In this document: one piece after another, positions 309 to 14,665 of the stretch
Numbering within the stretch: the first letter of the stretch is position 1
Layout of the letters: each line of letters opens with the position of its first letter
NCBI RefSeq assembly: GCF_024112395.2
Contig: NZ_CP078013.2
Span: 3,100,001 to 3,164,000 of the forward strand
Length of the DNA: 64,000 nucleotides
Source of the DNA: Pseudomonas pergaminensis
Lineage (GTDB): Bacteria; Pseudomonadota; Gammaproteobacteria; Pseudomonadales; Pseudomonadaceae
Reading direction: 5' to 3'
Position numbers and translations under genes: made by a program
Notes under the pieces: generated by a model
Database searches by the model: none
Told to the model about the DNA's origin: nothing
What the model saw: only the letters and a program-made list of their open reading frames with translations

Positions 309-333
309 AGGTATTCAGTCATCCATGATATTC

Positions 334-660: not shown

Positions 661-679
661 AAGTAATCCTTCGCGTATG

Positions 680-754: not shown

Positions 755-758
755 TGTG

Positions 759-950: not shown

Positions 951-966
951 GCCGTTTTCCTGCAAT

Positions 967-1269: not shown

Positions 1270-1284
1270 CACAGAGTTCCTTAT

Positions 1285-1357
1285 TCACGGACGCGGAAGC
1301 CGCGCCCTGGTACCGCCAAAGGCCCAATCAAGGACCGCTGGTGTGCAGCGATCTTTC
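1285..1357. repeat. array intergenic hairpin repeat, copy B
   Basis: On the minus strand it runs from TAGGAAAGATCGCTGCAC to GGCGCGGCTTCCGCGTCCGT. Both outer blocks are nearly identical to copy E at 3191-3284; the middle ~35 bp differs. It starts directly at the stop codon of the 78-aa gene. Confidence 0.65.
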
Positions 1358-1594
1358 CTACTCGAATTCCAGTAGCCCTTGCTGACGCGCCAGATCGACG
1401 GCATAAATAAAGATTTGCTCCGACACCGTCGAACGCGAACCACGATCTACCGGCCATTGTTGATCCCTGACGCTACTGCGCGCGATCACTATTGGTGCTG
1501 GAAGCCCTTGGGAGCAGAAATAGAGATCGAATCGCCCCTTGCTACCAAGATATGTGCAATCGCCAGGGAGTTTTGGATGCTGAGGTTGAGACAT
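1358..1594 (-). CDS. hypothetical 78-aa protein
   Basis: Starts MSQPQHPKLPGDCTYLGSKG. A compact protein with the segment GRFDLYFCSQGLP followed by a helical end, EQIFIYAVDLARQQGLLEFE. No family recognised. The stop codon merges into repeat copy B, as expected if gene and repeat form one unit. About 170 bp with no clear gene separate it from the stop-proximal side of the next upstream gene. Confidence 0.5.
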   Translation of the reverse strand: MSQPQHPKLPGDCTYLGSKGRFDLYFCSQGLPAPIVIARSSVRDQQWPVDRGSRSTVSEQIFIYAVDLARQQGLLEFE

Positions 1595-1766
1595 ATCGTT
1601 TTCCTCAATGATTCGGTTTTTCCTGGAGCGAGGTGGAGCACGCTTCAAGCGCTTCGCCTGTCAGCACATTCAGCTCAATCGCTCGCTCGCGAATGCCATC
1701 CAGATTATTTCTGTAGAAACCTGGCGACCCAGAACGCTGGATTGCAGGAATGGATTCGAGCCAGTG

Positions 1767-2171
1767 CTACATGTCTATCAAGCGATACAACAATTCCCTC
1801 AGAGGCCCAGCGACGGCTGAGGAAAATTGTGCGAGCGAAGAAGCTGCGGCCAACAGATCTGGAATGTGCTTTTGAAAATCGCCGTCATCGGGATCGATGT
1901 TGATGACACCATCATCCTCGGAATATGCGGAGTCGCTTGTTTCTATGAATCGGTCTAATGATCGGTTAATTCTGAGCAACGACGGGTAGAAGTTGAGGAT
2001 TACATTTTTCGCCTTTTCTGCATTGTCAGCTGCCTTTGCCCGTCTTTGGCTCAAGCTAGTAATGGCGGGAATTGCCACAGCTACGCAGATTGCTGCTACC
2101 GATCCTACGGCTTGGATCCAAGCTGCTTGTTCTGATGAAGATATGCTGGTCCACCACTGGATTAACGCCAT
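1767..2171 (-). CDS. small membrane protein, unknown function
   Basis: 134 aa. One clear hydrophobic segment (about residues 17-40, AAWIQAVGSVAAICVAVAIP) follows a short N-terminus starting MALIQWW; the remainder is a soluble helical domain. This 'TM + polar tail' layout is common in small membrane effectors of accessory regions, but no homology is recognised. The first five residues MALIQ resemble the MPLIQ start of two other genes in the array. Repeat copy C lies just upstream. Confidence 0.55.
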   Translation of the reverse strand: MALIQWWTSISSSEQAAWIQAVGSVAAICVAVAIPAITSLSQRRAKAADNAEKAKNVILNFYPSLLRINRSLDRFIETSDSAYSEDDGVINIDPDDGDFQKHIPDLLAAASSLAQFSSAVAGPLRELLYRLIDM

Positions 2172-2190
2172 ATCGAATCGCCCTTGCTAT

Positions 2191-2262
2191 ATCGTGGACG
2201 CGAAATCGGCGTCTCTATGCGGTTTTCCAGCCATACACTGCGCCTTGCCATATCAGCACGAC
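2191..2262. repeat. array intergenic hairpin repeat, copy C
   Basis: Minus-strand blocks GTCGTGCTG and GACGCCGATTTCGCGTCCAC match the outer blocks of copies B and E; the centre differs. It separates the 46-aa gene from the 134-aa membrane protein gene. Confidence 0.5.
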
Positions 2263-2281
2263 GCCGCCACGGTGGTCTTGG

Positions 2282-2422
2282 TTAGCCGCGAACATACTCC
2301 TCGGCTACCACGACAATGACCGTGCTTGGCAAATTGTGAATCCGCTCGACCATCTGCTCGATCTGGTTACGCACCTGCGCGATCAGCTCGGGGTTATATT
2401 GCTCAATCTGAATCAGTGGCAT
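2282..2422 (-). CDS. 46-aa protein with MPLIQIEQ start
   Basis: Encodes MPLIQIEQYNPELIAQVRNQ and 26 further residues, ending EEYVRG. The start is the ATG at 2422. The first eight residues are identical to those of the 100-aa protein at 967-1269, at different codons, and the first five resemble MALIQ at 1767-2171. It lies 27 bp downstream of the secreted-protein gene with no repeat between them. Function unknown; a truncated paralogue is possible. Confidence 0.5.
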   Translation of the reverse strand: MPLIQIEQYNPELIAQVRNQIEQMVERIHNLPSTVIVVVAEEYVRG

Positions 2423-2449
2423 TGTCAGTTTTCCGAGATGTTTTGGTAA

Positions 2450-2884
2450 TTACAGCTTCGTTTTTATACTGGGGTCTAAAACTCTCGGAGGGGACATCGT
2501 CGGCGCATATTTCACCCAGATGCGATAAACGGTGCCGGGCGAAACTGAACCAGCCGTACCACCAATTACACCCGCGACGGGGCCAATCACCGGAACAGAT
2601 TTGCTATCGATAAACTGACCTGACTGGTACAGAACGCTGTCACACATCTCTGGTGAAGGAGTTGTGCCGACTAATAAAACCTGGGTGTTTAGGTTAAGGC
2701 CACCACCTCTATTGATCTCGAAGAGTTCCTTAAACTCTTTCTCATTCTCGATCTTAATTAGGCAGGCAGCTCTGTAATTCCCGGTATCGCATATTGCGTC
2801 ACAACTGAGCTTTACCTCAGCAAACGACTGCTCGGATACCATCAGAGCGAATAGTGGTATTGCGAAAGCGAGACTGGATTTCAT
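2450..2884 (-). CDS. secreted/periplasmic protein, unknown function
   Basis: About 144 aa. Start chosen at MKSSLAFAIPLFALMVSEQS because a typical Sec signal peptide follows directly (cleavage likely after SFA). The mature part has several cysteines (CDAICD, ACLI, MCDSVL), suggesting disulphides in the periplasm, and a glycine-rich hydrophobic stretch near GPVAGVIGGTAGSVSPG. Longer in-frame upstream sequence belongs to repeat copy D. No family recognised. Confidence 0.6.
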   Translation of the reverse strand: MKSSLAFAIPLFALMVSEQSFAEVKLSCDAICDTGNYRAACLIKIENEKEFKELFEINRGGGLNLNTQVLLVGTTPSPEMCDSVLYQSGQFIDSKSVPVIGPVAGVIGGTAGSVSPGTVYRIWVKYAPTMSPPRVLDPSIKTKL

Positions 2885-2895
2885 GTGTTTCCCCC

Positions 2896-2984
2896 TGGTC
2901 GATCCCGAGAGCCGGAAGTGCCCGCCTCCTACTGGCGAAGCCCGCGACAATGGCGGGCTGATGGTACAGCGAGTTTTCCTACTT
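2896..2984. repeat. array intergenic hairpin repeat, copy D
   Basis: On the minus strand it begins AGTAGGAAAACTCGCTGTAC, has the hairpin GCCCGCCATTGTCGCGGGC and ends with GTAGGAGGCGGGCACTTCC. The 5' block overlaps the stop region of the 65-aa gene. Confidence 0.6.
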
Positions 2985-3176
2985 ACTGGGGCCATCAGTT
3001 GATACCAGCCGCTCCAGGTCCGACTTGGGCCCACCGGCGAATACAGCCAAGCGACACGAGGCGCTTGTGTGCGCCTCTTTCAAACCCCGTTGCTTACCGA
3101 AGCGGTAGCCGATATCGAACACACCGGCCACCAAAAGTAGGCCAATAAACACATACAGAATGGTCTCTACTGTCAT
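2979..3176 (-). CDS. 65-aa single-pass membrane protein
   Basis: Start chosen at MTVETILYVFIGLLLVAGVF because a hydrophobic helix starts immediately. The segment is followed by a basic turn (YRFGKQRG), giving one transmembrane helix with a cytoplasmic tail by the positive-inside rule. Its end overlaps repeat copy D. Small one-helix proteins of this kind can be toxins, holin-like or accessory subunits; nothing in the sequence decides between these. Confidence 0.5.
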   Translation of the reverse strand: MTVETILYVFIGLLLVAGVFDIGYRFGKQRGLKEAHTSASCRLAVFAGGPKSDLERLVSTDGPSK

Positions 3177-3190
3177 GCTCTTTCCCGTGG

Positions 3191-3284
3191 TCATTTCGCG
3201 GACGCGAAAACCGCGCCTCTCCTACGGCCTTAGCCCCGACTAGCGGAGCTTGGCGGTGCAGCGATGTTTCATCGGCGTTTTCCT
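3191..3284. repeat. array intergenic hairpin repeat, copy E
   Basis: Minus-strand blocks: AGGAAAACGCC, ATCGCTGCACCGCCAAGC, GGCCGTAGGAGAGGCGCGG and TTTTCGCGTCCGCGAAA. It is the fullest copy and serves as reference for the family. Confidence 0.65.
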
Positions 3285-3303
3285 GGGTACGGGTGACGGC
3301 TGG

Positions 3304-3531
3304 TCAGCCCTGGTCTCCCACACCCAGCTCAGTCAGCCGGCGAGCACGGCGCTTCTGTGCGTCATCGCGATACAACTGCACTGCCGGCGCAGCAACCAGC
3401 TGGGCGTCGTACAGCGCCTCGATATAACCAGTTGCATACGCCGTAGCAAACCGCACTTCCATCGGATGTTCTGCGGCGTCAATCAAGCCCAGTGCGTGGA
3501 CAATTTTGCTGTCCGGGGTTGCGGTGGCCAT
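3304..3531 (-). CDS. hypothetical 75-aa protein
   Basis: Starts MATATPDSKIVHALGLIDAA; alanine-rich helical protein with a basic segment KRRARR near the C-terminus. No known motif. It lies between repeat copy E downstream and a weaker repeat-like region upstream (about 3548-3612, hairpin GCCCGGTTCGCCGGGC). It looks like one more single-gene unit of the array. Confidence 0.5.
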   Translation of the reverse strand: MATATPDSKIVHALGLIDAAEHPMEVRFATAYATGYIEALYDAQLVAAPAVQLYRDDAQKRRARRLTELGVGDQG

Positions 3532-3547
3532 GTCGTCATTCCTTCGA

Positions 3548-3612
3548 TGTGGTGGATTCGCCCGGCGAACCGGGCTTGCGTGGTCAGACTGGGCGGTACA
3601 CCTGATGGCCCG
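3548..3612. repeat. weak copy of the array hairpin repeat
   Basis: On the minus strand CAGGTGTACCGCCC is followed by a GCCCGGTTCGCCGGGC hairpin. Position between two small genes and block order fit the array repeats, but identity to the other copies is low. A second repeat-like scrap lies inside the end of the VOC gene (about 3695-3735). Confidence 0.3.
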
Positions 3613-3687
3613 CCGTCACAGCAGAGGGCGAAGTGAACATGCGGATCATCGTCCTCGAATAGAATCCACATATTCAGCGAGTGTTTT

Positions 3688-4128
3688 TCAATGCCCTGTT
3701 ACGCTGCCGCGAAAGGCTGCCGGACCTGTCCGATGGTTCACTTCGATTTTCATCCCGTCTCCTATCGGACAATAGAACGCTGTCCATTGAACACCCAATA
3801 CTTCAAAACCATTGCTGATTTCCTCTGGGTGAAATCCTGCCTCGCTCATTTCAAGATGCTTTTCATGCACCTTCAAGGCTGTGTCCATGATAATGCCGAA
3901 GTGAAAGTTTGTAGGGTAAGCTGGCTGAATTGGCGACAATATTTCCGTGATGACAATAAAAGACTGATCGCTACCTTCGAGCATCGCGTACTCATATTCG
4001 GACTTCGACGATCCGGCTGGCGCAGGTGCCTTGCCCGCCTGCAGGATTTCATAATCAAAGAATCGGTTCAAAAACGCGCTTAAAGCCGTAACATCGCTGG
4101 AGCACAAATTAATATGGTTGAGTTTCAT
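3688..4128 (-). CDS. VOC (glyoxalase/dioxygenase superfamily) protein
   Basis: 146 aa. Start at MKLNHINLCSSDVTALSAFL. The N-terminal pattern (MKLNHINL..SDV..L..F....F.YE) and later HFGIIMDTALKVHEKHLEM segment are typical of the vicinal-oxygen-chelate fold; a metal site could use the first His and later acidic residues. Substrate cannot be told; resistance or thiol-conjugation roles are common in this superfamily. The last ~12 residues (AAFRGSVTGH) read into repeat-like DNA, so the original C-terminus may have been replaced. Confidence 0.75.
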   Translation of the reverse strand: MKLNHINLCSSDVTALSAFLNRFFDYEILQAGKAPAPAGSSKSEYEYAMLEGSDQSFIVITEILSPIQPAYPTNFHFGIIMDTALKVHEKHLEMSEAGFHPEEISNGFEVLGVQWTAFYCPIGDGMKIEVNHRTGPAAFRGSVTGH

Positions 4129-4216
4129 ACGAGCGCCTTTCAAAAATTTTCTGTTGTTTGAAGGTTCAGCTGTTAGCCAGGGTTAGATAACTCTCAAGCT
4201 CACATAGCGGCGGCGA

Positions 4217-4690
4217 TCAAATCCGACGCAATCGCAACAAGCCATTATCGAACCACCATATGGCAATGGATCCGTCCGGCATGGCAAGAATCGTCGGCGA
4301 CGGTGCTTTATTCGGTCCCCAGCTACCGCTCTCACATGCAACAGAAAAAGCCGACAGTGCCGGCCCACCGGCCTTGCGCACGGTCGCACGAGCATCAGCA
4401 TCGTTGTCGCGCCGCGTTGGTTTGATCGACGGCTTTTCACATGGTGCATCGGTCGCGTTTTGAACGTGATCCCAGAATAACCGGGTGGCAGTGATGCTCA
4501 AGCGTTTGCCCATCAAAGAAGGATCATCGTTGGACAGTGACTGTATGCGACCATTGCCCACGGTAGCACTGATGACTTCCCAGCGACCTTCAAGTTGACT
4601 TGCCGAGGCCACCGGTGGGGTGTTACCGGCATATGCAGTCGCGGATAAACTGACAGTGGCAGCGATCAATATGCCGAGTGGTTTTAACAT
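4217..4690 (-). CDS. secreted hypothetical protein
   Basis: 157 aa with a Sec signal peptide (MLKPLGILIAATVSLSATAYA). The mature part starts with LEGRWEVISATVGNG, a strand pattern like lipocalin-type or META-type small beta proteins, and ends SIAIWWFDNGLLRLRRI. Two cysteines (APCEKP, VACESG). It lies 29 bp downstream of the DUF3443 gene on the same strand, so the two exported proteins are probably made together. Function unknown. Confidence 0.55.
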   Translation of the reverse strand: MLKPLGILIAATVSLSATAYAGNTPPVASASQLEGRWEVISATVGNGRIQSLSNDDPSLMGKRLSITATRLFWDHVQNATDAPCEKPSIKPTRRDNDADARATVRKAGGPALSAFSVACESGSWGPNKAPSPTILAMPDGSIAIWWFDNGLLRLRRI

Positions 4691-4719
4691 AGTAATTGTC
4701 CGAGGGAATTTTAGTGAAA

Positions 4720-5763
4720 TTATCGAGATTCAGGCCGAACAGCCTGGGCAAATCGATTCGGGCGTACGGCGATTTCACCATGTTCCTGATCGAACAACAC
4801 ATCGTAAGCATAGAACGGCAACGTTCCTGCGTTGACGGAAACGCCATTACCCTTGCTAGGTTCAAAGCGCGTTTTAGCACCGTTGCGTTTGTCACCAGCT
4901 AGAAATACGACGCTTGGATTCTCGTCGCCTGCAGAACTCATCAGCGTGATGCGTGCCTGTGCTCCAGGCTGCCAACCCGGAGGGCGTTCAGCACCCCGTA
5001 TTGCAAGTCCGGGCGCACCGGTGTCGAGCAAAGTTGGTCCACAAAAACGCAGCGCACCTGGTCGATCAACCATGGTACAAGCGACAACAGTGCCAGGCGT
5101 TTTGGTGTCTCTTTGCAAAGTTATGAAACCTGCCAGATCATTTTGGTCTGGATTGAGGATAAGTTCCCCATTGCTCCCGCCGCGCTGTGGCAGATGGACG
5201 ATCCAGCTGTGTACGCCGATTGCAGTCAGTGGATTCGGGACGTTGCCGGTATTGAGCCGGGTTCCCATGATCGCTTGAAACCCCTGCCCAGCTTGTCCAG
5301 ATCCCATCAGACCATATTGAGCAGCTGTCAGAGTCGCTGCAGGGCAGTTCTTGCCAGCTACACAGGACACCCGTTCGACAGCTTGTACCGCAATCTTGCC
5401 TTTTACCGTACCGATCTGGATATCGGTGTAAGCGATGGTGCCGTCAAGCTGTACACCACTGCCATAGCTGTAGATCGCCGGTTGCACGCCCTGCGTGACG
5501 CCCGCGCTCAGCGTTGCCGCAGGCAAGATGCGCAGTCCGACCGATCCCGTGTCGAGTCCCACTTCAATCGGCCTTCCGTTGATCGTTACAGTTAAACTGT
5601 AGCGGGGCGTGCCTGATGGCTCGATCAAGACCTCGCGGATAGGTACGACACTGCGCTGTGCCTGCTCTGCAATTGCAGATGAGGCCAACACGAAACCAGC
5701 TGTTGCGAATCCGAAACGCAAAAATTTGCAAAGACGGCTCATTTTAATATTCTCGCGACTCAT
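4720..5763 (-). CDS. DUF3443-type exported protein with two DTG motifs
   Basis: 347 aa from the ATG at 5763, or 340 aa from the ATG at 5742 (MSRLCKFLRFGFATAGFVLA), which gives the better signal peptide. The 5763 ATG overlaps the TGA of a small upstream ORF (ATGA), pointing to translational coupling. Two D-T-G motifs, VGLDTGSVGL near residue 70 and LLDTGAPGLAI near 250, sit in positions resembling the two active-site loops of bilobal pepsin-like proteases; DUF3443 proteins have this pattern. Proteolysis is inference. Its neighbour downstream is another exported protein. Confidence 0.65.
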   Translation of the reverse strand: MSRENIKMSRLCKFLRFGFATAGFVLASSAIAEQAQRSVVPIREVLIEPSGTPRYSLTVTINGRPIEVGLDTGSVGLRILPAATLSAGVTQGVQPAIYSYGSGVQLDGTIAYTDIQIGTVKGKIAVQAVERVSCVAGKNCPAATLTAAQYGLMGSGQAGQGFQAIMGTRLNTGNVPNPLTAIGVHSWIVHLPQRGGSNGELILNPDQNDLAGFITLQRDTKTPGTVVACTMVDRPGALRFCGPTLLDTGAPGLAIRGAERPPGWQPGAQARITLMSSAGDENPSVVFLAGDKRNGAKTRFEPSKGNGVSVNAGTLPFYAYDVLFDQEHGEIAVRPNRFAQAVRPESR

Positions 5764-5801
5764 AAATTCCTAAACTCCGCCTTGAACTGGTCTGGTGTCA
5801 C
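5760..5801 (-). pseudogene. remnant of the 'TPxxFKAE' small ORF
   Basis: Reads V-TPDQFKAEFRNL-stop. It corresponds to the start of the 37-aa ORF at 11675-11788 (LTPEDFKAES...), is in the same position behind a recombinase end, and its TGA overlaps the ATG of the DUF3443 gene, just as the intact ORF overlaps the Abi_C gene. Truncation probably marks the cargo junction. Confidence 0.5.
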
Positions 5802-5812
5802 TTTGGTGCCCT

Positions 5813-5926
5813 TTAAATAATTCTCCGCACAATGTCACCAAGCCGTGCAGGATCGCGCTGTAGTACGTTTTGCCGTCGCGCTGCTGTGTGAAGGACACCG
5901 TCTTGCTCCAGCGAAATTTCATCCAT
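5813..5926 (-). pseudogene. remnant of a second tyrosine-recombinase-like gene
   Basis: Two separate pieces of the recombinase at 11788-12450 are recognisable: QQRDGKTYYSA and, in another frame, the complete C-terminus RDPARLGDIVRRII followed by a stop. They are joined at a shared GCG with loss of roughly 90 codons, so the gene was internally deleted. An intact 37-codon reading frame (MDEISLEQ...) crosses the join, but its first half is out of the original frame. It shows that the recombinase-led module existed twice in this array. Confidence 0.7.
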
Positions 5927-5935
5927 AGTGATCGC

Positions 5936-6154
5936 TCAATCCTGGGCGAGCGAAAGCATCACCCTTCTACGTCTTCGGCCCAGCGAGAGGGCCGGGCTTA
6001 GGATTACCTGATGCGTTGTCCTGGACAACAAACGTATACCTAGCCGGTCTTCCAACTGCCCGACCCGACGCGAAACAATCGTAGCGTCGCGTCCGATCAC
6101 TTTCGCGGCCTCGGTAAAACTGAGCGCCTCCACCACCGCCACAAACGCTGACAA
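5936..6154 (-). pseudogene. truncated LysR-type regulator, HTH part only
   Basis: The first ~52 residues (MSAFVAVVEALSFTEAAKVI ... LLSRTTHQVIL) are a standard LysR N-terminal winged helix-turn-helix. The reading frame then enters repeat copy F and ends; the ~230-residue effector domain is absent. The fragment could still bind DNA but cannot act as a normal LysR regulator. The break at the repeat suggests a recombination event there. Confidence 0.75.
5941..6005. repeat. array intergenic hairpin repeat, copy F
   Basis: Minus strand: AAGCCCGGCCCTCTCGCTGG, then GGCCGAAGACGTAGAAGG and GCTTTCGCTCGCCC. Closest to copy A. It interrupts a LysR-type gene. The 276 bp between the LysR start and the monooxygenase stop hold no gene. 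Confidence 0.5.
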
Positions 6155-6430
6155 TGTGACCGTTGGTGCCGAATTGACCCTGTTGCTGGCGTGACGCTGA
6201 CCTGCGTCAGCTCGCTAATAACCCAAAGCCAATGATCGTTTACATCACAAGAGCTTGGGTCAGCGAGATATCAGCAACTGGCTCAATCTAGCTCCGGCAG
6301 CAACATGCAGGGTTAATCGGACAAACCACTACCGGCCGCATACCTGTGCTGATTAACAGAGCTTTTTAGCTAACGCTTCATGACCTTTAATATAAAAAAT
6401 AACATGCGAAGTTGCCAAACAGATTTCATA

Positions 6431-7627
6431 TCAGCCGGTGCTTTTGGATACATACAACGGAAGATCAATTTTTTTAGAATTTCGAAGCAACAAATTGGAA
6501 AAACCTTTACGCAACGTCGGTTTTCCCGCGATGCGGATTAGACCTCTCAGCAGCTTAAGTCCAGTACGAGAGTGAGGCCAAAGCATGCGAGGCAGAATCT
6601 TAGGAACGCCTTGCCCTTCTCTTACAAACGGCCGCATGACGCGCTCATAAGAGGCAAGTGCAGAGGGAAGATCATCTGTTTTTGCTAACTCACCTGCCAA
6701 TACATAGCCGCCGACTATAGCTAATGTAGTGCCTATGCCAGACAACGGGGTAACGCACCAAGCAGAATCACCGGTAAGGACCACACGATTGTGGTGCCAG
6801 CGACGCATTCTTACCTGTCTAAGAACATCAAAATAGAAGTTGTCAGTCTTATTCATACCGTCAAGAATTCGCGGGAAGTGCCATCCCGCGTCGGAGAACT
6901 TCTCTTGCAGGAACTTTTTTTGTAGCTCTACAGGCCAGTCATTTTCGCCCTCTGGTTTTTTCTGCATACCCATATATACATGCACATTGCCCTCACGACC
7001 TGGCTTTAAGGTCGCTCCGATTCCACCTACAGTATTGTATTGCCGCGCGAATACACCATCGACTGAACCTTTGGGTATTGCGAAATAGGCGAGAGTCATG
7101 TCCATCCACTTCGGATTGTTCTCTCCTGGGAAAATCAATTCGCGAGTAGATGATCCTACACCCTCCGCCACAATCACAACATCGTATTGGGCACTTGGGC
7201 GATTCTGGAAGTGAACGGTGGTACCGCTTTCATCTTGTTCAACAGCCTTGATAGTTTCATTGAAAAAATAGGTTGATCGATTGCTCGCAGGCTCATAGAT
7301 CAATCGAGCAATGTCGCCACGCATTATTTCCAACTCAGCTGTTGGACCATCGCCAATATCATCGACTGTGAATCGCGCGATTGGATTGTCGTTTTCGTCT
7401 ACCCAATCAGTGCCTACCTCAGAGGTACGAAGAGCTAATGCCGCCCGCTCAAGCCCCATCATTCGCAGCACATCTCGACCTGCTCCTCGGACATCTACGT
7501 TTTGGCCTTCATCACGAAATGCGGGAGCTTTTTCAATAACAGTAACGTCAAAGCCATACTGGGAAAGCCACCATGCTGCGGTATTGCCAGCAACGCTTGC
7601 TCCACTGATGAGGATTTTTTTAGCCAT
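6431..7627 (-). CDS. FAD-dependent monooxygenase (PHBH/TetX-like)
   Basis: 398 aa from MAKKILISGASVAGNTAAWW. The N-terminal Rossmann motif (GASVAG...VIEKAP) binds FAD; the GD motif near residue 285 (VVLTGDSAWCVTPLSGIGTT) is typical of group A flavoprotein monooxygenases, which hydroxylate aromatic or tetracycline-like compounds with NADPH and O2. Start at 7627 is chosen over an 11-codon upstream extension because of the motif spacing. A MarR-family gene lies directly upstream with paired palindromes between, so control by that regulator is likely. Substrate unknown. Confidence 0.88.
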   Translation of the reverse strand: MAKKILISGASVAGNTAAWWLSQYGFDVTVIEKAPAFRDEGQNVDVRGAGRDVLRMMGLERAALALRTSEVGTDWVDENDNPIARFTVDDIGDGPTAELEIMRGDIARLIYEPASNRSTYFFNETIKAVEQDESGTTVHFQNRPSAQYDVVIVAEGVGSSTRELIFPGENNPKWMDMTLAYFAIPKGSVDGVFARQYNTVGGIGATLKPGREGNVHVYMGMQKKPEGENDWPVELQKKFLQEKFSDAGWHFPRILDGMNKTDNFYFDVLRQVRMRRWHHNRVVLTGDSAWCVTPLSGIGTTLAIVGGYVLAGELAKTDDLPSALASYERVMRPFVREGQGVPKILPRMLWPHSRTGLKLLRGLIRIAGKPTLRKGFSNLLLRNSKKIDLPLYVSKSTG

Positions 7628-7655
7628 GCAGATTCTCCTGTAATCCGCACACAAT

Positions 7656-7689
7656 ATCACGCATGATACAAAAAAACATCACGCGTGAT
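7656..7689. promoter_or_regulatory. tandem palindromic operator, probable MarR site
   Basis: Two 12-bp palindromes, ATCACGCATGAT (7656-7667, one mismatch) and ATCACGCGTGAT (7678-7689, perfect), centre-to-centre 22 bp, i.e. two helical turns on the same face. They lie between the marR-like stop and the monooxygenase start, the expected place for an operator of the monooxygenase promoter. Confidence 0.7.
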
Positions 7690-7697
7690 ATTTAATT

Positions 7698-8144
7698 CTA
7701 GCCTTCTAAATTTGCAATAAATCGTTGGAGTAACGCCACTAACATCGCTGCTTCCTCAGGCGTGAATCCATTAACGCCTTGTGCGTTCGTGTCGAGCAAA
7801 ACATGCCGTCCTAGAGCGGCAGTATCCCGACCGCTTGGTGTGATGCTTACAAGCGCAGCTCGCTTGTTTGTCGCTACAACGGCCCTCTCAATCAGGCCGG
7901 CCGCTTCTAGCTTATCAAGCGTCGCAACCATGGCTGGCTGTTTTACTGCAGATGCCTTCACGAGATCCCGCTGCAGCATAGGGCCGCGCCAAGACAGCCA
8001 TAGCAACGGGCCGATTAAAGTCAGCGATGTCCCATGTGACCTTAACGTAGCTTCTACCGTGCGATGAAATACGCGTTCTGCTCGCTTCGCGAGGTAGCTG
8101 GGAGCAACAGCCGCGTCGGGATGAATATCTTTGTCATTGTTCAT
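7698..8144 (-). CDS. MarR-family transcriptional regulator
   Basis: 148 aa from MNNDKDIHPDAAVAPSYLAK. The winged-helix part (LLWLSWRGPMLQRDLVKASA, then MVATLDKLEAAGLIERA and NKRAALVSITPSG) is the standard MarR arrangement of recognition helix and wing. MarR proteins act as ligand-released dimeric repressors. It precedes the monooxygenase by 70 bp that contain two palindromes, so it probably controls that gene. Confidence 0.88.
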   Translation of the reverse strand: MNNDKDIHPDAAVAPSYLAKRAERVFHRTVEATLRSHGTSLTLIGPLLWLSWRGPMLQRDLVKASAVKQPAMVATLDKLEAAGLIERAVVATNKRAALVSITPSGRDTAALGRHVLLDTNAQGVNGFTPEEAAMLVALLQRFIANLEG

Positions 8145-8231
8145 GCCAGCATTTTGTCGGAAATTGATGACTATCACTAGCCTGATGCTGAGTTAATCCG
8201 AATGGCATCCCCCGATCAGCGTTTTCCGTGA

Positions 8232-8408
8232 TTAGGACAGGGTGACGACTGGGCCACCCATGCGCTCGATCAGCTCGTCACTGCTGGACTCGTTCACATG
8301 GTCAACCGAACCGTTAATTTCATCGGCTCCGTGATCGTGGTCTTGAAACACCACCTCGGCATCCGGGTCCATTTTCTTCAACTGTCGGATCAGCTCTTTG
8401 ACTTTCAT
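8232..8408 (-). CDS. 58-aa acidic protein
   Basis: MKVKELIRQLKKMDPDAEVV then an Asp/His-rich segment (FQDHDHGADEIN) and a C-terminus ending PVVTLS. The opening V-K-E-L-I..L.K.DPDAEVV is common in small phage- and plasmid-borne proteins of unknown function. Complete with ATG and TAA; it stands alone between the ART-like gene and the MarR-like gene. Confidence 0.55.
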   Translation of the reverse strand: MKVKELIRQLKKMDPDAEVVFQDHDHGADEINGSVDHVNESSSDELIERMGGPVVTLS

Positions 8409-8484
8409 CTGCGCCTTTTTCCTATCGTCCTGTCCGCACCTAGCATAGCGTGCTGATTGCTTTGAAGTGGGTGATGTTCACTGG

Positions 8485-9129
8485 CTAACTTTGTCTTGGG
8501 GAAAAATGGCATTTGACACTTATAGTGCTCAATCTGCGCCTGTCGATTGTGTACTCATACTCCTGTAAATAGATGCTGTGAGCTGATGGGCCGGCGATTA
8601 TTGATTTCGCAGTTCCAGTTGTTTCCAAGATCACACCGCCTCTCCCTTCAGCGTTCAACCCACTGGCAAACATCTTGGCTACACTCTCTTTATCACTCCA
8701 AGCAGTACCAATTCTTCCGAGGTCGAATCTATCTAAATTTTCTCCACGATATAGGAGCAGCTCAGATCCGTCGTATCGAGGTAACCACTTCCAGAGCATG
8801 TCCATTAACAGGTCATCGTCATCAACAAGTGCTCGGATGTGGTGGTGTCCGACATGCCATTGGGTATGAAACCGATCTAGAAGCACAGAGTTTGTAGGCA
8901 CACAAGCGGCCATATCCCTGATGAATGTACGCCAATCATTTCTATGTCTAGCGATGTCGGAGCCGTTAAGGAGCGGCCCGTATTCATTGCCATCGAGGAT
9001 ATGGCTTAAGAGAGGCGGGTAATCTGATAGCCCAAGGTCAATCTCTGGTAACTTTTTTTGCCATTTTAGCTCGCTCAAATCGATGTCAATGCGCGAAGGG
9101 GCATTGTCAGCTTTCATCAGTTTCTTCAT
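8485..9129 (-). CDS. putative ADP-ribosyltransferase-fold toxin
   Basis: 214 aa, no signal peptide. The C-terminal half shows an R-S-E-like series: LLLYRGENLDRF (Arg), GTAWSDKESVAKMFASG (Ser/Thr motif and helix) and YLQEYEYTID (E-x-E), in the order and spacing of arginine-type mono-ADP-ribosyltransferases. The N-terminal ~100 residues are unassigned. The 128-aa gene upstream is only 13 bp away and may encode its antidote. Toxin role is inference from the motifs and the small two-gene layout. Confidence 0.5.
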   Translation of the reverse strand: MKKLMKADNAPSRIDIDLSELKWQKKLPEIDLGLSDYPPLLSHILDGNEYGPLLNGSDIARHRNDWRTFIRDMAACVPTNSVLLDRFHTQWHVGHHHIRALVDDDDLLMDMLWKWLPRYDGSELLLYRGENLDRFDLGRIGTAWSDKESVAKMFASGLNAEGRGGVILETTGTAKSIIAGPSAHSIYLQEYEYTIDRRRLSTISVKCHFSPRQS

Positions 9130-9142
9130 CGCTTTTTCCGAT

Positions 9143-9529
9143 CTATTTTGGGTTGGAGGCCGATGCCGCTATTTCGCGAAGATCACTGATGATTTTCGGA
9201 ACGACAACAGATAATTGACCGTCCCGCAATGCAGCATTTCTAATCGTGTTGGCCACGTCTTCGACGCGCCAATACTCCTCAATAAACCGCGCTGAAACTT
9301 CCGCTTTTTCATTGATGTAACTGCTGAGCAGAACGCCTGGCAAATGTGTCAACACAAAGCCCATTGCAACGCGCCCGTGCTGATTAACACATGCAACTAG
9401 TAGGGCAGTCATTTCCTCGAAGCGCCCATCCTTGGCCAGCTCGCGTAAAGCTCCAAAAGCAGGCTCGCTGACGTATTTTTGGTCCCAACTTTGAAAGAAC
9501 TCAGCAATGATTTCTTCTATCGCCCGCAT
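9143..9529 (-). CDS. hypothetical 128-aa protein, partner of the ART-like protein
   Basis: Starts MRAIEEIIAEFFQSWDQKYV; all-helical, soluble, with the pattern ALRELAKDGRFEEMTALLVA reminiscent of helical repeat or immunity proteins. It is followed 13 bp later by the ART-like gene, so both are likely translated from one message. Antitoxin/immunity function is a guess from context. A diverged hairpin repeat lies upstream (about 9556-9616). Confidence 0.5.
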   Translation of the reverse strand: MRAIEEIIAEFFQSWDQKYVSEPAFGALRELAKDGRFEEMTALLVACVNQHGRVAMGFVLTHLPGVLLSSYINEKAEVSARFIEEYWRVEDVANTIRNAALRDGQLSVVVPKIISDLREIAASASNPK

Positions 9530-9555
9530 AGTGCTGTCTCACCGAAAATGGTTAA

Positions 9556-9616
9556 TTAGCAGTCAAAGCTGCACTTCTTACGTCCTGAGCCCAGCATTCG
9601 GCAGGGTTCAGTGTTC
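9556..9616. repeat. diverged array hairpin repeat
   Basis: Minus strand GAATGCTGGGCTCAGGACGT and AAGAAGTGCAGCTTTGACTG keep the block order of copies A and F with several changes. It separates the lipoprotein gene from the two-gene ART-like unit. Confidence 0.35.
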
Positions 9617-9627
9617 CTCAAGATACT

Positions 9628-10602
9628 TCATGGCGTTTTCCCTTCAGCGCACCACTGTTCCCATTCAGCTATTTGGTCGTGCCTAACCATCGCTTCTTCC
9701 CCCATTTCCTCACGATAAGCATTCATCCACTGGTCAGAGCAGTCTCCAGCAGTGGCGATGTTTTGAATATTGTTAGATTTTCTTGATGGTACAACAGGGT
9801 GCTGAATGCCAGACCTATCTAGGTCATACAGTTCTGTCTCTCCAGTGGAATTATATCGGGTTATTCTGGCATACTCGCCTTGAAAAGGAGCAACGGTACG
9901 GCTGACGCTATTGTCATCATTAAAGAAGGTGGCAAGACCATCTTGTTTCCCATCAATGAAAGTTACCTCCATCTTAAGCTTTCCGTAATCCCACCACTCA
10001 CGATGCAGACCGTTCTCTTTACCGTTGTTCCATACGGTGGAAAATACCTGGGTACCATTTCCCTGCCAGCGATCATCCGTACCGTCTAATGTGCCCTTTT
10101 TATAGCCTTGGCTCAGGAGCTTTCCTTGCCCGCTGGGGTTATAAATTTCAAGTCGCCCGTCGAATTTGCCATCGTTGAAGGCAGCGGACAGGCTCAGCCG
10201 ACCCTTGGAGTCGTAGATAGTCCATTTACCCGATGCCAAACCCTTATTAAACTCGCCTTCCAAGCGCACAAGTCCGGAGTTGCTCCTGCAAGCGATTTTT
10301 CCGTCTCGTAAGCCTTCACTGGCGCCAACGTCGCAAATTAGAGACGGAGTAGGAAGGGTTTCTTGGCGGTTTGCTGGCTCTACATTACGGAAGTGAAGGC
10401 CAAGCAGATCAGTTTCTGGGCCATTAATAAGTGTCTTCATGGGAGCATTCGTGACGTATCCAGAAAATGGCTTGTTATCTTTGCCTGAATATATCTTGCC
10501 CCCAGATATGCGGGCGTTATCCCAATCAAGGGTATCACTCCCGCATCCCACAAGAGCGGTGCCCAGAAATACTGCAAAAAGCCCTAATTTTATTCCGTTC
10601 AT
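9628..10602 (-). CDS. lipoprotein with MORN-like (toxin-antitoxin YwqK-type) repeats
   Basis: 324 aa from MNGIKLGLFAVFLGTALVGC, a lipoprotein signal peptide with lipobox LVGC; the mature start is Cys-Gly-Ser. Several repeats of the type DGKFDGRLEIYNPSGQ, KGTLDGTDDRWQGNG and NGKENGLHREWWDYGKLKM are MORN_2 repeats as in the YwqK family. The C-terminus has CSDQWMNAYREEMG. Probably anchored in a cell membrane facing the periplasm. The 240 bp between it and the Abi_C stop hold only a short fragment without a start. Confidence 0.65.
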   Translation of the reverse strand: MNGIKLGLFAVFLGTALVGCGSDTLDWDNARISGGKIYSGKDNKPFSGYVTNAPMKTLINGPETDLLGLHFRNVEPANRQETLPTPSLICDVGASEGLRDGKIACRSNSGLVRLEGEFNKGLASGKWTIYDSKGRLSLSAAFNDGKFDGRLEIYNPSGQGKLLSQGYKKGTLDGTDDRWQGNGTQVFSTVWNNGKENGLHREWWDYGKLKMEVTFIDGKQDGLATFFNDDNSVSRTVAPFQGEYARITRYNSTGETELYDLDRSGIQHPVVPSRKSNNIQNIATAGDCSDQWMNAYREEMGEEAMVRHDQIAEWEQWCAEGKTP

Positions 10603-10842
10603 TATGTTGCTCCTATTACGTGACTTTCTGGGCTGACGCCTAAATGTGTGAAAGCTGTTCGAAACTTTTCCCATCGACCCTGAATTTTCACCAATTGTGG
10701 CCTGCTCTTGCGGTGCTTCTATTTGAAGGCGGTTGCCATGGTCGAGTGCTTTGGGTGATATGGTCAAAAGCTTCCTATGGTGCATCAGGATCAATGGCGA
10801 CCCACGCTTTCGTGCCGTGGTAGTCATCGCCGCCTATTACAA

Positions 10843-11682
10843 TCAGTCCTCCACCTTTGCGGCTCGCTCGTCCCAGGTTTCAAGAACGAATGCGGCAATT
10901 GTGTGTGCTGCATGCACTGCTAACCGGGCGTGTCTAGGTTTTAGTCTGTAAGGTCGCTTCACAGGACCATGTGCTGAGCTTCCATGCGTGCGCAGCGCGC
11001 CGATCCCATTCACTGTGGCCATGATCCCACTGATAATTTCCTGAAGATCTCGCTCCTCTACAATCGATGCGTCTAGTCCAAGATCTGCTTTGACGACCTT
11101 CCATACTGATTGAAGGTCCTGCTTGGCTGGCATTGAGAGGTGTGAATGTTCCTCAATATAAATTTTGAAAATCGTTTCTAATATGTTGCACGCCGCTGAT
11201 ACTGCTTCTCTTGGGCTTGCCACGACATTTTTCAAAGCGCGGTCGAATTCAAAATCAATCACATCTAGGTTCCGAGCCTTAACGAGCTCTGCCAGAGATT
11301 TTGTAGCAATACCTTGTCCATGGCTAAGAATTCCGCCAGAGCTATATGAGAAACCAGCTCTGGCCAGAGCGTCCTTGATTTTTTTTACCCTCAACTTATG
11401 CGCCTCAACGGCAGCTTCGGGTTGCCAAAAGGAGGAACTGGGTTCCGGTGCATCCAGATATTTTTCGACAATTCGCCCAATAATCGAAAGCGCGCGGTCG
11501 CCACTCTCCTTGTTTATTCGTCTCAACCAGTCAAGCGCCTTTACCGGCTTGCTTCCCTCGGGAGGATCACCAGGTGCTTCTGCGTACATAAACAAGCTAT
11601 CTAAGCTTGCGTGAGTTTCGGCCTCTGCTACCGCGTCAGCGACCGCGGCGAGTACGAAGGCGGGTACCGGAAACTTATTCAT
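10843..11682 (-). CDS. Abi_C (abortive infection C-terminal domain) protein
   Basis: 279 aa. The C-terminal ~90 residues (LRTHGSSAHGPVKRPYRLKP and AHTIAAFVLETW) match the pattern of the Abi_C domain, a HEPN-related module found in phage abortive-infection proteins; the R....AHG motif is intact. The N-terminal ~180 residues are helical and unassigned. Its ATG overlaps the end of a 37-aa ORF (ATGAATAA), which overlaps the recombinase-like gene, so all three are one transcriptional and translational unit. Defence role is inference. Confidence 0.7.
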   Translation of the reverse strand: MNKFPVPAFVLAAVADAVAEAETHASLDSLFMYAEAPGDPPEGSKPVKALDWLRRINKESGDRALSIIGRIVEKYLDAPEPSSSFWQPEAAVEAHKLRVKKIKDALARAGFSYSSGGILSHGQGIATKSLAELVKARNLDVIDFEFDRALKNVVASPREAVSAACNILETIFKIYIEEHSHLSMPAKQDLQSVWKVVKADLGLDASIVEERDLQEIISGIMATVNGIGALRTHGSSAHGPVKRPYRLKPRHARLAVHAAHTIAAFVLETWDERAAKVED

Positions 11683-11788
11683 AATCAGAGAACTCGGCCA
11701 TACAGTTGGTGATCGATTTCTTGCCGCCCCATCTCCAGCGCAGGGACTCGGCTTTGAAATCCTCCGGGGTCAATCTTTGAACCAACAT
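11675..11788 (-). CDS. 37-aa ORF linking recombinase-like gene and cargo
   Basis: Encodes MLVQRLTPEDFKAESLRWRW plus 17 residues. Its ATG shares one base with the recombinase TGA (TGATG) and its last codons overlap the start of the Abi_C gene. A truncated copy of its beginning (TPDQFKAE) lies behind the recombinase remnant at 5.8 kb, so the ORF is a conserved part of the module rather than chance. Too short for any family assignment; a small accessory or DNA-binding protein is possible. Confidence 0.55.
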   Translation of the reverse strand: MLVQRLTPEDFKAESLRWRWGGKKSITNCMAEFSDYE

Positions 11789-12450
11789 CAAATAATTCTC
11801 CGCACTATGTCGCCCAGACGGGCTGGATCACCTGCGCATAGCTTCTTGACTGCTTCCAGACTCTCGATGCCCAATATCTCGCTGATGTGCCGTAAGTCGA
11901 TGCCGCGGCGTTTCAACTTGACCGCAAGTGTGCGGCGTCCAGACTGTGCACTGGCTCCCTCGATCCCGGCCGTGCTGAACAGGCGTGTATAGAGTCGGCT
12001 GAGCTGGTTCGCGCTGTAGTACGTTTTACCGTCACGCTTCTGAGCGCTGATCTTCAACCCCTCGCCAGTGCGACCGGACACGAACAATGGCGAGTCAGGA
12101 TCAAGTCCACGAAAGGCCATCACTCTGGTTGAAACGCCGTGACCACGTGCGAGGCGTTCGGCAAGGTGCGCGTCTATGGCATTAGTCAACTTCTTGCTGG
12201 TCCAGCACAACGGCCTGGAGCGATGGTTGTAGGCGATTTCTGCGCGCACCAAGGAGTCGATCAGCACAGTGCCAGATTCTGTGAGGTAGTCGCTCACGCG
12301 AAGGCGGCAGATCTCTGTCACGGTCATGCCGGTGCCAAAACATGTAAGCAGCAGCGCCGCATCACGACCGCCATTCTCCGGGCTGCTCACTTTGGCGACT
12401 CGTACAGCGTGTTCTAGCTGCTCATCTTCGATAACGATCGCCTTGGGCAT
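11788..12450 (-). CDS. tyrosine-recombinase-like protein lacking canonical catalytic residues
   Basis: 220 aa. The catalytic-domain outline of phage integrases is clear: GRDAALLLTCFGTGMTVTEI (box I), KTYYSANQLSRLYTRLFSTA and SGRRTLAVKLKRRGIDLRHI then SEILGIESLEA. But the box I Arg is Thr (GTGMTVTE for TGLRxSE), the HxxR His is absent, LGH reads LGI and no Tyr follows; only the second Arg fits. It lacks the N-terminal core-binding domain as well. Direct strand cleavage is therefore unlikely; it may bind DNA or act with a partner. It heads the small-gene array. Confidence 0.7.
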   Translation of the reverse strand: MPKAIVIEDEQLEHAVRVAKVSSPENGGRDAALLLTCFGTGMTVTEICRLRVSDYLTESGTVLIDSLVRAEIAYNHRSRPLCWTSKKLTNAIDAHLAERLARGHGVSTRVMAFRGLDPDSPLFVSGRTGEGLKISAQKRDGKTYYSANQLSRLYTRLFSTAGIEGASAQSGRRTLAVKLKRRGIDLRHISEILGIESLEAVKKLCAGDPARLGDIVRRII

Positions 12451-12500
12451 ACTTCACTCTAAATGCTGATTTACCATCAATCCTGACATAGTACGTCAAC

Positions 12501-12524
12501 AAAAAGGCCGGGGATAGCCCGGCC
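12501..12524 (-). terminator. rho-independent terminator at the head of the array
   Basis: Perfect stem AGGCCGGG / CCCGGCCT followed, on the minus strand, by five T. It would stop minus-strand transcription arriving from the right and insulate the recombinase-led array. Confidence 0.7.
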
Positions 12525-12668
12525 TGCTCGATGTATCTGGTGTTCACGGAAAATGAGAGGGGGCATATAGGGATATAGGTGTAAGCAATAAGCCAGAATG
12601 ACTTTAGATATGCAGTCGCATGCTGTAAGCATTGACTATGGGGCTAAACCAGAACCGTGTCGGCGGTC

Positions 12669-12849
12669 TGCTTTTGGCCCAGAGTGTGTAAAAACGCTTC
12701 GCCAAAATTGAAGTGTGCGCGCCTACGTTAAATCTGAAATTTATCGGCACATCAGCAGATGTGGATTTCGCGTAGAAACGCGATTTTCAGTCCGGTTTTG
12801 AGTAGCGGTCGCGCTCAAAACTGTTTTTACACAGCCTCGTCCAAAAGCT
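12669..12849. mobile_element. MITE-like element, ~180 bp
   Basis: Ends are inverted repeats: left GCTTTTGG...AGTGTGTAAAAAC, right (reverse complement) GCTTTTGG...GCTGTGTAAAAAC, over about 27 bp with a few mismatches. The inside has no coding capacity and contains further hairpins (GTTTTGAG/CTCAAAAC). No transposase nearby. The rest of 12451-13222 holds the terminator and no convincing gene. Confidence 0.55.
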
Positions 12850-13222
12850 GAAATTCGGGTCAGAGGGATACGGTGGACCGGCGTCTGCGCACCTCGACGG
12901 ATCCCCAACCTACTTCACTCCGAGGAAGAGGTGGGAGCAATACGCGCAGCGCTAGTAGCGCAGTAGAAATCTCAGGAACAGCTGAAGCCGTTAGATCTCG
13001 ATGCGGAAGGTCAGATCGGCTCATAACATCTAGATGGAATTTTGGTGTGGGCTTTTTGGTAGGATCTGTGCTTGAGGTGATTTTTAACCGGACGAAGTTC
13101 TCTAACTAAGCTGGCTCCTTTTTGAGTTTGATCGGATTTATGCAATATCGCCGGCTTGAGATAAATAGTAGTATCTGAGAGTCGTATAGGATTTTTGCGT
13201 AAACACCTGATGGAGTTGAATA

Positions 13223-14170
13223 ATGAGAACTCGGAAATTTAGAACATTGAATCTTGGGAAAATTACCGTTATCGCGGTAATTTCTCTTATAATTGGTATC
13301 TGGATTGGTGCCTGGTGGTGGGTTTCCAATCCATCAGACTTTATCAAAAAACTGACGAATCAACCGTTAGCAGATACCTTCAGCAGCGTTAATGCCCTTT
13401 TCGCGGGGCTAGCATGTGCTGGCGTACTCATCACGATTTATCTTCAAATGCGCGAATTGAGTGTGACTGCAGATGATCTAAAGAAGACAGCAGAAGCCAA
13501 CACAGCCACGGCGCGTGCGATTAGTGATACAGCCTTGGCTAACGGTGAAATGGCTCGGGCCAGTCTTAAAGTTGCCATCCATGCGGACGAGCGATCAGTG
13601 CTAGATCTATTTCAGGTGTACTGCAGCCAATATTTTCAGGACGTGAAAAACTCTTCAATGAGCGTACTGATTCCATGTGTAGCCAGCAAGGAGTACTTTG
13701 ATTTTTTAGTGAGCCGTTTTTTTGTCGCAGAACAACTCTCTCTCCCATCAAGTTGCTGGAAGAGAGTGTCAAAGGTCACATATTCCAAGAGCTATGACGA
13801 ATTCATCATTCAGGAGCAGCACCACCGCTACAAACTCGACGAACTTATTAATTTTTTTACCATGTTGACTGGCCGTGATAACGCTCGTGAAATCATCTTG
13901 CGTTGTGACTTTTCTTATTCTTGGTGGCGGCCATTGTTTTGGATGATCGCGTCTCAGCAAGAACGCCGTGTTAATGAGCGTCCACGTGTTCGAGCCTATG
14001 CTACACCATTGTATTTTTTAAAGGTGGTGAAAAAGTTAGATGAAATTTATGGTTTTGAGCCGTTTCCATCTGATGCTGAGATGTGGGATTTCATTGTTCA
14101 TCACCCAAAAATTCAAAGTTACTATTTGGATCCAGCGCACGGAGCGCATCTGTCCAAAAGCGCGGTATGA
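13223..14170 (+). CDS. two-helix membrane protein, unknown function
   Basis: 315 aa. Hydrophobic segments at about residues 13-33 (ITVIAVISLIIGIWIGAWWW) and 55-75 (VNALFAGLACAGVLITIYLQ), then a short heptad-like stretch (TADDLKKTAEANTATARA) and a ~200-residue cytosolic domain. The region is clearly lower in GC than its surroundings, a sign of recent transfer. This layout is common for stand-alone membrane-anchored accessory proteins; no family was recognised. It is the only long plus-strand gene in this stretch. Confidence 0.65.
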   Translation: MRTRKFRTLNLGKITVIAVISLIIGIWIGAWWWVSNPSDFIKKLTNQPLADTFSSVNALFAGLACAGVLITIYLQMRELSVTADDLKKTAEANTATARAISDTALANGEMARASLKVAIHADERSVLDLFQVYCSQYFQDVKNSSMSVLIPCVASKEYFDFLVSRFFVAEQLSLPSSCWKRVSKVTYSKSYDEFIIQEQHHRYKLDELINFFTMLTGRDNAREIILRCDFSYSWWRPLFWMIASQQERRVNERPRVRAYATPLYFLKVVKKLDEIYGFEPFPSDAEMWDFIVHHPKIQSYYLDPAHGAHLSKSAV

Positions 14171-14665
14171 GGGCAAACTCATCAACTTCAAGCTACACCT
14201 TACTCAGGATATGGCGTTGTAGATCGCCAGCTGCCGATTTGTCGCCGACAACCACATACCTAACACCTGTCGGCGAGCAGGCGACTACCTTGCTGCACGA
14301 GACGACCGGTATGTGGTTAAAACCGGTATTTCGACTTACAGACATGGCCGGCAGTTATCGCTGCATAGCTGACACCCGCTGGCAAATCACGAACGGCAGC
14401 TACTTTGGGATTGACCGCTTCTAGCCGAAAGCAGTTCGTTATACGAATTAATATTGACCATAGTTTGGCTTGCCGGGCGTGACCTTGAACTCATGGGATA
14501 GCCAGCACCACCGGTGGGGCTATGGGGCAAAAATGGGGCAAACCATGCCATTCAATGCCCATTAGGCGTTTATGCGAGGAGGCAAGAACAGGCGTTACAG
14601 ACAGCAAACACGGGGCTATAGCGCCAAAGCTGTCTCATACCCCAGCACAATCGGGATGTGCTTTG
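14171..14665. other. no gene; possible integrase-attachment-like DNA
   Basis: No supported gene. Near 14520-14550 the repeated word TGGGGCAAAAATGGGGCAAA occurs in a context often seen at the edge of integrase genes in Pseudomonas islands, but no integrase or tRNA is adjacent. Confidence 0.3.

Follow-up and report, generated by a model that had tools for sequence, protein, structure and literature searches.

Organization of the module and its second copy

In the window (the whole stretch of 64,000 nucleotides that was analyzed), a recombinase-like gene, a 37-aa ORF, and an Abi_C gene follow a short left-end motif on the minus strand, and a second, deleted copy of the module lies farther along the same strand:

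12553-12542, minus strand: left end of the module, TTTTCCGTGAAC, 103 nt before the recombinase-like gene
12525-12505, minus strand: terminator-like hairpin and T run between the left end and the gene, seen by eye in relatives too
12450-11788, minus strand: recombinase-like gene, 220 aa (PF00589, E 2.8e-11), its stop lying within TGATG
11788-11675, minus strand: 37-aa ORF, beginning on the ATG of the recombinase TGATG and stopping within the start of the Abi_C gene
11682-10843, minus strand: Abi_C gene (cargo), abortive-infection C terminus (PF14355, E 3.8e-17)
5886-5815, minus strand: second recombinase-like copy, an internally deleted pseudogene (blastn against the first copy)
5813-5760, minus strand: remnant of the start of the small regulator gene, TPDQFKAE, overlapping the next gene
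5763-4720, minus strand: second cargo gene, weakly aspartyl-protease/DUF3443-like (below Pfam cutoffs)

The first-pass annotation had described a base-by-base overlap of the recombinase-like gene, the 37-aa ORF, and the Abi_C gene, and the coordinates from 12450 to 10843 bear this out. The Abi_C domain scored 62.6 bits against a PF14355 cutoff of 24, and PADLOC matched AbiJ (E 6e-11) at residues 164 to 269 only. In the second copy, an out-of-frame fusion joins QRDGKTYYSA to DPARLGDIVRRII, the 13 residues also seen in the first copy, and VTPDQFKAE follows, overlapping the gene at 5763-4720 through ATGA; the remnant that had been reported, with the same last 13 residues, a TPxxFKAE start, and an ATGA overlap, is thus present at 5886-5760. 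The likeness of the two copies is not due to chance, because blastn aligns them in segments of 34 and 40 bp at E values of 2e-8 and 1e-6. The second cargo gene is indeed a different gene, although the DUF3443 label it had been given is weak (E 0.089); this match and that to Asp_protease_2 (E 4e-4) are both below the Pfam cutoffs.

The window recombinase finds matches at E 1e-20 or better in 14 of 398 sampled Pseudomonas genomes, two of them being members of the sister family described below and at least two being partial. Abi_C homologs at E 1e-20 occur in 7 of the 398 genomes and lie directly behind the recombinase in two, that of the window and G385. The other five are absent from the 14 recombinase-positive genomes, and Abi_C therefore also occurs without the recombinase, as read at three of these five loci (L104 to L106). 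At L106, a 55% identical Abi_C homolog adjoins a sequence that presumably resembles a true integron attC site.

The recombinase-like family and its catalytically complete sister family

The recombinase-like protein is confidently predicted to have a tyrosine-recombinase catalytic-domain fold, its AlphaFold2 model having a pLDDT of 91.3 and XerA (5hxy, TM 0.67) as the best PDB match. The protein lacks Arg-I and has no Tyr after residue 154. Among 115 relatives (a list that includes fragments), the residues of an active tyrosine recombinase, R-H-R-H-Y, are all present in one. At the Arg-I position, where the window protein has T, 94 relatives have T, K, M, A, or S and 8 have R; the column of the nucleophilic Tyr is a gap in 110 and Y in 3; and the second Arg is retained as R in 104. 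The product of the window gene, called recombinase-like in the first-pass annotation, is unlikely to be an active recombinase, since catalytic residues are missing.

A sister family, 31 to 36% identical to the window family, has the five catalytic residues in 94 of 120 members (a list again including fragments, from the best 120 of 720 proteins at E 1e-3). All nine sister loci inspected singly are catalytically complete. Two chromosomal loci, L049 and L050, that matched the window protein at 31 to 33% identity are complete. On plasmids, the sister family was found in 486 records at E 1e-5, 385 of them below 60% identity, and tblastn with the window recombinase returned 378 plasmid records, with identity reaching at least 60% in 51 of them. 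In 41 of the 398 genomes there is a match to the sister protein at E 1e-15, a figure that includes the window family and many fragments. A search of the window genome for a complete recombinase of this type found the window gene itself as the sole match. A phage origin was ruled out, with no match among 50,697 phage records. On plasmid Rms163 (L069), the array has a complete recombinase at its head and, farther inside at about 14074 to 14599, a broken window-family member together with the start of a regulator.

The small gene behind the recombinase

In relatives, a small regulator-type gene overlaps the recombinase-like gene, and the 37-aa ORF is the decayed, truncated beginning of such a gene. 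A complete small gene of about 58 to 64 aa (LTPxEFKAEYRRRGW...) is present in L004/L018, L009, L029, L031, L032, and L033. In L008/L021 the ORF continues with an internal stop, and it is cut at differing lengths in the window, L006, L019, L024, and the second window copy. Because these cut points differ, the junction within the small ORF is not fixed, and a single junction point there is ruled out. Contrary to the proposal, sequence identity does not end at one site inside this ORF; the junction that recurs exactly lies between cassettes, at GGAAANC.

The recombinase stop overlaps an ATG (TGATG or TAATG) in 26 of 30 loci, the exceptions being L006, L023, L034, and L035; these 30 include five places twice, under two locus names each (L002/L016, L004/L018, L007/L020, L008/L021, and L010/L037). 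The gene starting at the overlap varies. It is of the KorA/TrfB type in L036 and L037 (Pfam KORA above the cutoff, E 2.4e-7 and 4.3e-6) and, by look, in L011. A PapB-type regulator occurs in Aeromonas L055 and, behind a sister-family recombinase, in pA506 (E 1e-11 and 3e-15); other gene types occur in L005/L022, L030, and L038, and a membrane-type protein (by look) takes the regulator place in L003 and L017. The regulator of about 58 aa matched helix-turn-helix (HTH) models below the cutoff only, the L038 regulator had no HTH match in the model search, and the start of the L065 regulator was assigned manually to agree with its relatives. TrfB/KorA is thus one of several alternative genes at the place of the small ORF. 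A TrfB fragment, suggested for the window by plasmid annotation, was rejected, as the remnant belongs to the other family, LTPxEFKAE. Different genes follow the recombinase-like gene in relatives, in agreement with the varying cargo of the first-pass annotation.

Rows of genes on plasmids and the GGAAANC core

On Pseudomonas plasmids, the recombinase-like gene heads rows of up to about 60 short co-directional genes, with 65 annotated genes from the regulator onward in L060 and 45 in L057, and the sister family heads the same kind of row. Before the row lies a promoter-like stretch with palindromes, followed by a leader of about CATTGAAGCGAATCACTGAGGA (by eye, eight loci). Many junctions between the genes are only 7 to 21 nt long, and the core GGAAANC recurs in them. 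In L060, the core is found in 47 of 61 junctions, and 53 of 63 sense cores sit in junctions, which make up 23% of the array; the 63 sense cores compare with 5 antisense cores and with a shuffle mean of 11 (maximum, 25). Sense and antisense counts are 41 versus 6 in L058 and 39 versus 2 in L057. Strict GGAAANC occurs in 68 of 86 gaps of seven other arrays or array parts, from 13 of 14 in L066 and 12 of 14 in L067 down to 5 of 9 in L061. With a relaxed core, the rows behind complete recombinases have 44 versus 4 (L069), 16 versus 3 (L049), 28 versus 11 (L070), 11 versus 3 (L050), and 7 versus 3 (L071). These array sets were chosen for the presence of a recombinase-like gene. A Burkholderia array is also enriched in cores (10 versus 2; shuffle mean, 1.8).

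The Aeromonas plasmids L055 and L038 carry a recombinase-like gene, a regulator-type gene, and small co-directional genes in the same order. GGAAANC is not enriched in these Aeromonas arrays (2 versus 1 and 0 versus 0), which perhaps have another junction motif.

Breakpoints between related rows

Breakpoints were collected without conditioning on the core from 11 array loci on 11 plasmids (pSTY, one from P. paraeruginosa, and nine from P. aeruginosa) out of the 378 plasmid records, with alignments below 93% identity or shorter than 120 nt excluded. The core is present in both sequences at 48 of 81 breakpoints, in one at 11, and in neither at 22, compared with 4.4% per sequence at a random array position; these breakpoints are not all independent, because several of the 11 arrays are close relatives. 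Some of the 22 core-free breakpoints resemble ordinary indels, and some lie within the hairpin leader described below. The seven arrays whose gaps were counted are a subset of the 11.

Related arrays differ by single genes. Gene 0659, for example, stands behind four genes, 3703, 3708, 3702, and, in L068, 4233; at each junction, the left neighbor supplies the sequence up to GGAAAN and the right gene supplies CGCGCC-ATG. Other swaps between GGAAAN and C place 3709 behind four genes, 3703 behind three, and 3702 before four. A comparison conditioned on the core, covering 926 unique core occurrences in loci of every kind, arrays or not, yielded 48 same-right/different-left and 43 same-left/different-right pairs, some of which are ordinary divergent homologs rather than swaps. 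Identity at swaps is 0.16 to 0.42 on the differing side, with 0.53 to 0.58 at the base next to the core, and 0.92 to 1.0 on the shared side. Base N comes mostly from the left unit, being shared in 0.72 of same-left and 0.35 of same-right pairs, with genes 3708 and 4233 as exceptions. As far as these sequence comparisons go, cassettes appear to be exchanged at one exact core, which is unlike that of integrons. The loading point of the first-pass annotation can be kept insofar as cargo units are joined and exchanged at exact junctions behind the recombinase-like gene; its site is not inside the small ORF.

The left end and its flanks

When up to one mismatch is allowed, the left end TTTTCCGTGAAC, whose reverse complement contains GGAAAA, is found at -95 to -118 in 25 of 30 distinct upstream regions for the window family and, at nearly the same distance, in 12 of 20 for the sister family. 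These counts leave out hits below 60% identity, starts after query residue 16, upstream regions shorter than 160 nt, and repeats of one region. The eight bases before the core of the left end fit the array profile modestly (p 0.02). Sequence to the left of TTTTCCGTGAAC differs in most loci. One chromosomal target is common to both families, with incomplete recombinases in L003 and L019 and complete ones in L073 and L076; here, 1.38 to 1.40 kb of the 1.45 kb of flank compared is shared, and identity stops 0 to 8 nt from the left end. A flank of about 125 nt immediately left of this motif (window about 12673 to 12554) is common to L006, L026/L048, L028/L050, and L075, where the recombinase is complete or incomplete and the farther flanks differ; it may represent a target site or the terminus of a different element.

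Part of the window as a probable, partly decayed row

The window from about 12553 to 686 on the minus strand is probably a chromosomal, partly decayed cassette row. Besides the module and its second copy, it contains the following features:

10775-10769, minus strand: degenerate core GGAAGCT, end of the recombinase and Abi_C unit (comparison with L043)
9641-9635, minus strand: core GGAAAAC, gene junction (core scan)
8227-8221, minus strand: core GGAAAAC, gene junction (core scan)
6026-5927, minus strand: hairpin leader before the recombinase remnant, core degenerate (GGACAAC; nhmmer E 1.5e-14)
3283-3182, minus strand: core GGAAAAC (3283-3277) and hairpin leader, right boundary of the stretch 3556-3276
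2979-2973, minus strand: core GGAAAAC and hairpin-like leader (core scan)
2434-2428, minus strand: core GGAAAAC, gene junction (core scan)
2228-1598, minus strand: cassette, with cores at 2228 and 1604
960-748, minus strand: cassette, with cores at 960 and 754
759-666, minus strand: core and hairpin leader of the next cassette (nhmmer E 2.9e-16)

Between 12450 and the window start, the ORFs that match a family, as well as the seven longest, are on the minus strand, and the longest plus-strand ORF has 174 aa. The 12.7 kb contains 14 minus-strand cores and 1 on the other strand, and shuffles of the array part of the window give a mean of 4.4 and a maximum of 9; by reading, 9 of the 14 lie at gene junctions and 5 lie inside genes. 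Left of the window start, the core density drops to the background level; within the window, a single core lies in the stretch 4001-8000. A pair of genes at 8177-6431, which we take to be a MarR-like regulator and an FAD-dependent monooxygenase-like gene, lies in this core-poor middle of the row.

Several window segments recur elsewhere. L043 is 96.7% identical to window 12552-10772 over 1,781 nt; identity stops at 10772, and the equivalent position of L043 has GGAAACC and then a different gene. The stretch 3556-3276 is also present on plasmid NZ_CP093029 and has its right end in common with L066, with strict cores in both. The unit 2228-1604 is 88% identical in the P. aeruginosa plasmids L060 and L071, where it lies behind other genes, and the copies have A, C, and G at core position N. 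A copy of the 212-nt unit 960-749 with 95.3% identity stands behind the regulator of L031, a plasmid of P. syringae HS191. For both units, the plasmid copies have an imperfect core on the right-hand side (GGAAGA and GAAGAAC). The occurrence of two window units on plasmids, with identity ending at cores, indicates that the window region was built by the same process as the plasmid rows.

The window modules could also be two degenerate plasmid insertions whose cargo was joined by deletion, with no cassette system active now. The varied truncation of the small ORF, the deleted second copy, the decayed cores, and the search of the genome, which found no complete recombinase, all fit such an origin, but single window units found elsewhere with identity ending at cores speak against it, and we consider it unlikely as a full account. 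As a picture of the present state, it is compatible with the cassette row.

A candidate cassette platform

We consider it likely that the rows represent a cassette platform that is common on Pseudomonas plasmids and is integron-like without being an integron. Its architecture, core, and breakpoints are directly visible in the loci compared. A complete platform consists of the left end TTTTCCGTGAAC, a gene of 220 to 226 aa with a tyrosine-recombinase fold, and a small DNA-binding regulator (KorA/TrfB, PapB, or another HTH-like type), whose gene, in platforms with a window-family recombinase, overlaps the recombinase gene by TGATG or TAATG; a promoter-like palindromic stretch, a leader, and a long row of short co-directional genes then follow. 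Each unit ends with RGGAAAN and the next starts with C, often 3 to 8 nt before its ATG, and units are gained, lost, and swapped through exchange within GGAAANC. This exchange would be site-specific recombination by the complete sister recombinase, acting in cis or in trans, which would recognize both GGAAANC and the left end as its places of exchange. The incomplete window form, which would bind without cutting, may be a DNA-binding accessory, a regulator, or a fossil, and the small regulator, together with the palindromic promoter-like region, would control the expression of the row. In the window, the regulator is truncated, and the defense-type Abi_C gene now takes its place.

The main doubt about this mechanism arises because the information flanking the core is weak and many cores are Shine-Dalgarno-like in position. 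The 22 of 81 core-free breakpoints, the 5 of 14 window cores inside genes, the core-poor stretch 4001-8000, the unenriched Aeromonas arrays, the poor HTH matching of the 58-aa and L038 regulators, the lack of a complete recombinase in the window genome, and the imperfect right-hand cores of the plasmid unit copies also count against the platform. A broader proposal, which we put forward tentatively and hold somewhat less probable than its opposite, is that the platform is a second, independently evolved bacterial cassette-capture system, built on an XerD-like, catalytic-domain-only recombinase and a dead, KorA/PapB-coupled sister. Such a system would move promoterless single-gene cassettes with the 7-bp core GGAAANC under the recombinase's own regulated promoter, its sites would be plasmids and fixed chromosomal places, and the dead sister would head its own arrays as a binding or control factor.

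Rather unlikely, in our assessment, is that the rows are ordinary tight operon-like plasmid arrays in which GGAAANC is a favored Shine-Dalgarno sequence and reshuffling is illegitimate, selected for a kept ribosome-binding site. In L060, 36 of the 53 junction cores do lie 1 to 11 nt before the next annotated start, at the Shine-Dalgarno place, and the core is short, with little information in its flanks (profile). However, the other 17 are separated by at least 21 nt from the next annotated start (some may precede unannotated genes), and window units stop at cores (3283 and 754) that are followed by a hairpin leader and not by a start. The trailing C of GGAAANC is outside the Shine-Dalgarno sequence, and unrelated pairs break at a single base, directly behind GGAAAN. 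A core is found within 40 nt upstream of 37 of 64 array genes versus 1 of 17 backbone genes of a like plasmid, taken as a control.

It is improbable that the window recombinase-like protein is itself active through an unusual active site. The second Arg and the fold are kept, 51 plasmid records carry relatives at 60% identity or more, and window-family members head arrays with single-gene swaps, but Arg-I is replaced and the Tyr column is a gap in most relatives, and the window protein has no Tyr in its C-terminal part, after residue 154.

The hairpin leader

A leader of about 100 nt is repeated before many cassettes, at 759-666, 3283-3182, and 6026-5927 in the window and in L029, L031, L036, L040, L042, L049, and L050. 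It has one well-kept stem, in which three of seven pairs are changed on both sides, and a second stem by eye. Rfam gave no match, either in seven loci at the gathering score or in window 1-13000 at E 1. A role of this hairpin as the recombination site, an analogue of attC, would suit its repeated, conserved stem and the few breakpoints inside it but is very improbable, since many junctions of 7 to 21 nt without a hairpin still exchange at GGAAANC. Because it starts right after the core and runs into the next gene, the hairpin is better read as the leader of some cassettes.

Comparison with known systems

Integrons comprise IntI, attI, attC cassettes, and Pc. The integron features used in this comparison are also given in the accessible part of PMC4542609. 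Like integrons, the platform is headed by a recombinase gene, carries mostly unknown genes in long co-directional rows, has single-gene units that are swapped at a short exact core, and is apparently expressed from one upstream promoter. Unlike in integrons, the recombinase is not IntI and is transcribed in the array direction, the core is GGAAANC, a dedicated regulator gene and the left end TTTTCCGTGAAC are present, and many junctions, at 7 to 21 nt, are too short for attC. The window recombinase scored 16.7 bits with the IntI model TIGR02249 (cutoff, 265) and 17.4 bits with NF011946 (cutoff, 435). Because it is not of the IntI type and many junctions are too short for attC, the platform was classed as integron-like and not as an integron. 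Its recombinases resemble XerC/XerD and other Xer-type recombinases in fold and, weakly, in sequence; unlike these, they have 220 to 226 aa without an N-terminal core-binding domain, and catalytic residues are missing from the window family.

Integron-like elements (ILEs) in rulB of Pseudomonas are described in the accessible part of PMC4542609 as having three recombinases, of 385 and 525 aa for two of them, and as integrating into rulB with a 3-bp repeat. The platform shares with them its integron-like character and its occurrence in Pseudomonas, and plasmid pA506 has rulAB beside its platform. Rows of single-gene cassettes, a feature of the platform, are absent from the ILE description as far as that part of the source extends, and an ILE in rulB was rejected as an identity for the platform on the same basis, being a different element. 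Cassette rows with a GGAAANC core were not found described among the open-licence PubMed Central papers that the searches listed, including the accessible parts of PMC4542609, PMC4554452, and PMC5424326.

If the platform exists as proposed, integrons would not be the sole gene-cassette platform, and dozens of unknown small plasmid genes, in rows where some genes bear names such as ArdR, NinX, GNAT, and Abi, could be read as exchangeable units with known borders, which would explain much plasmid variability in Pseudomonas. It would also offer a short, exact core for testing and, in the active and the dead recombinase, a natural pair for comparison. A 2.6-kb insertion that distinguishes L039 from L003 was considered as a cassette and rejected; it is a different mobile element, with a 7-bp flanking repeat and GTGGCCGGATG repeats.
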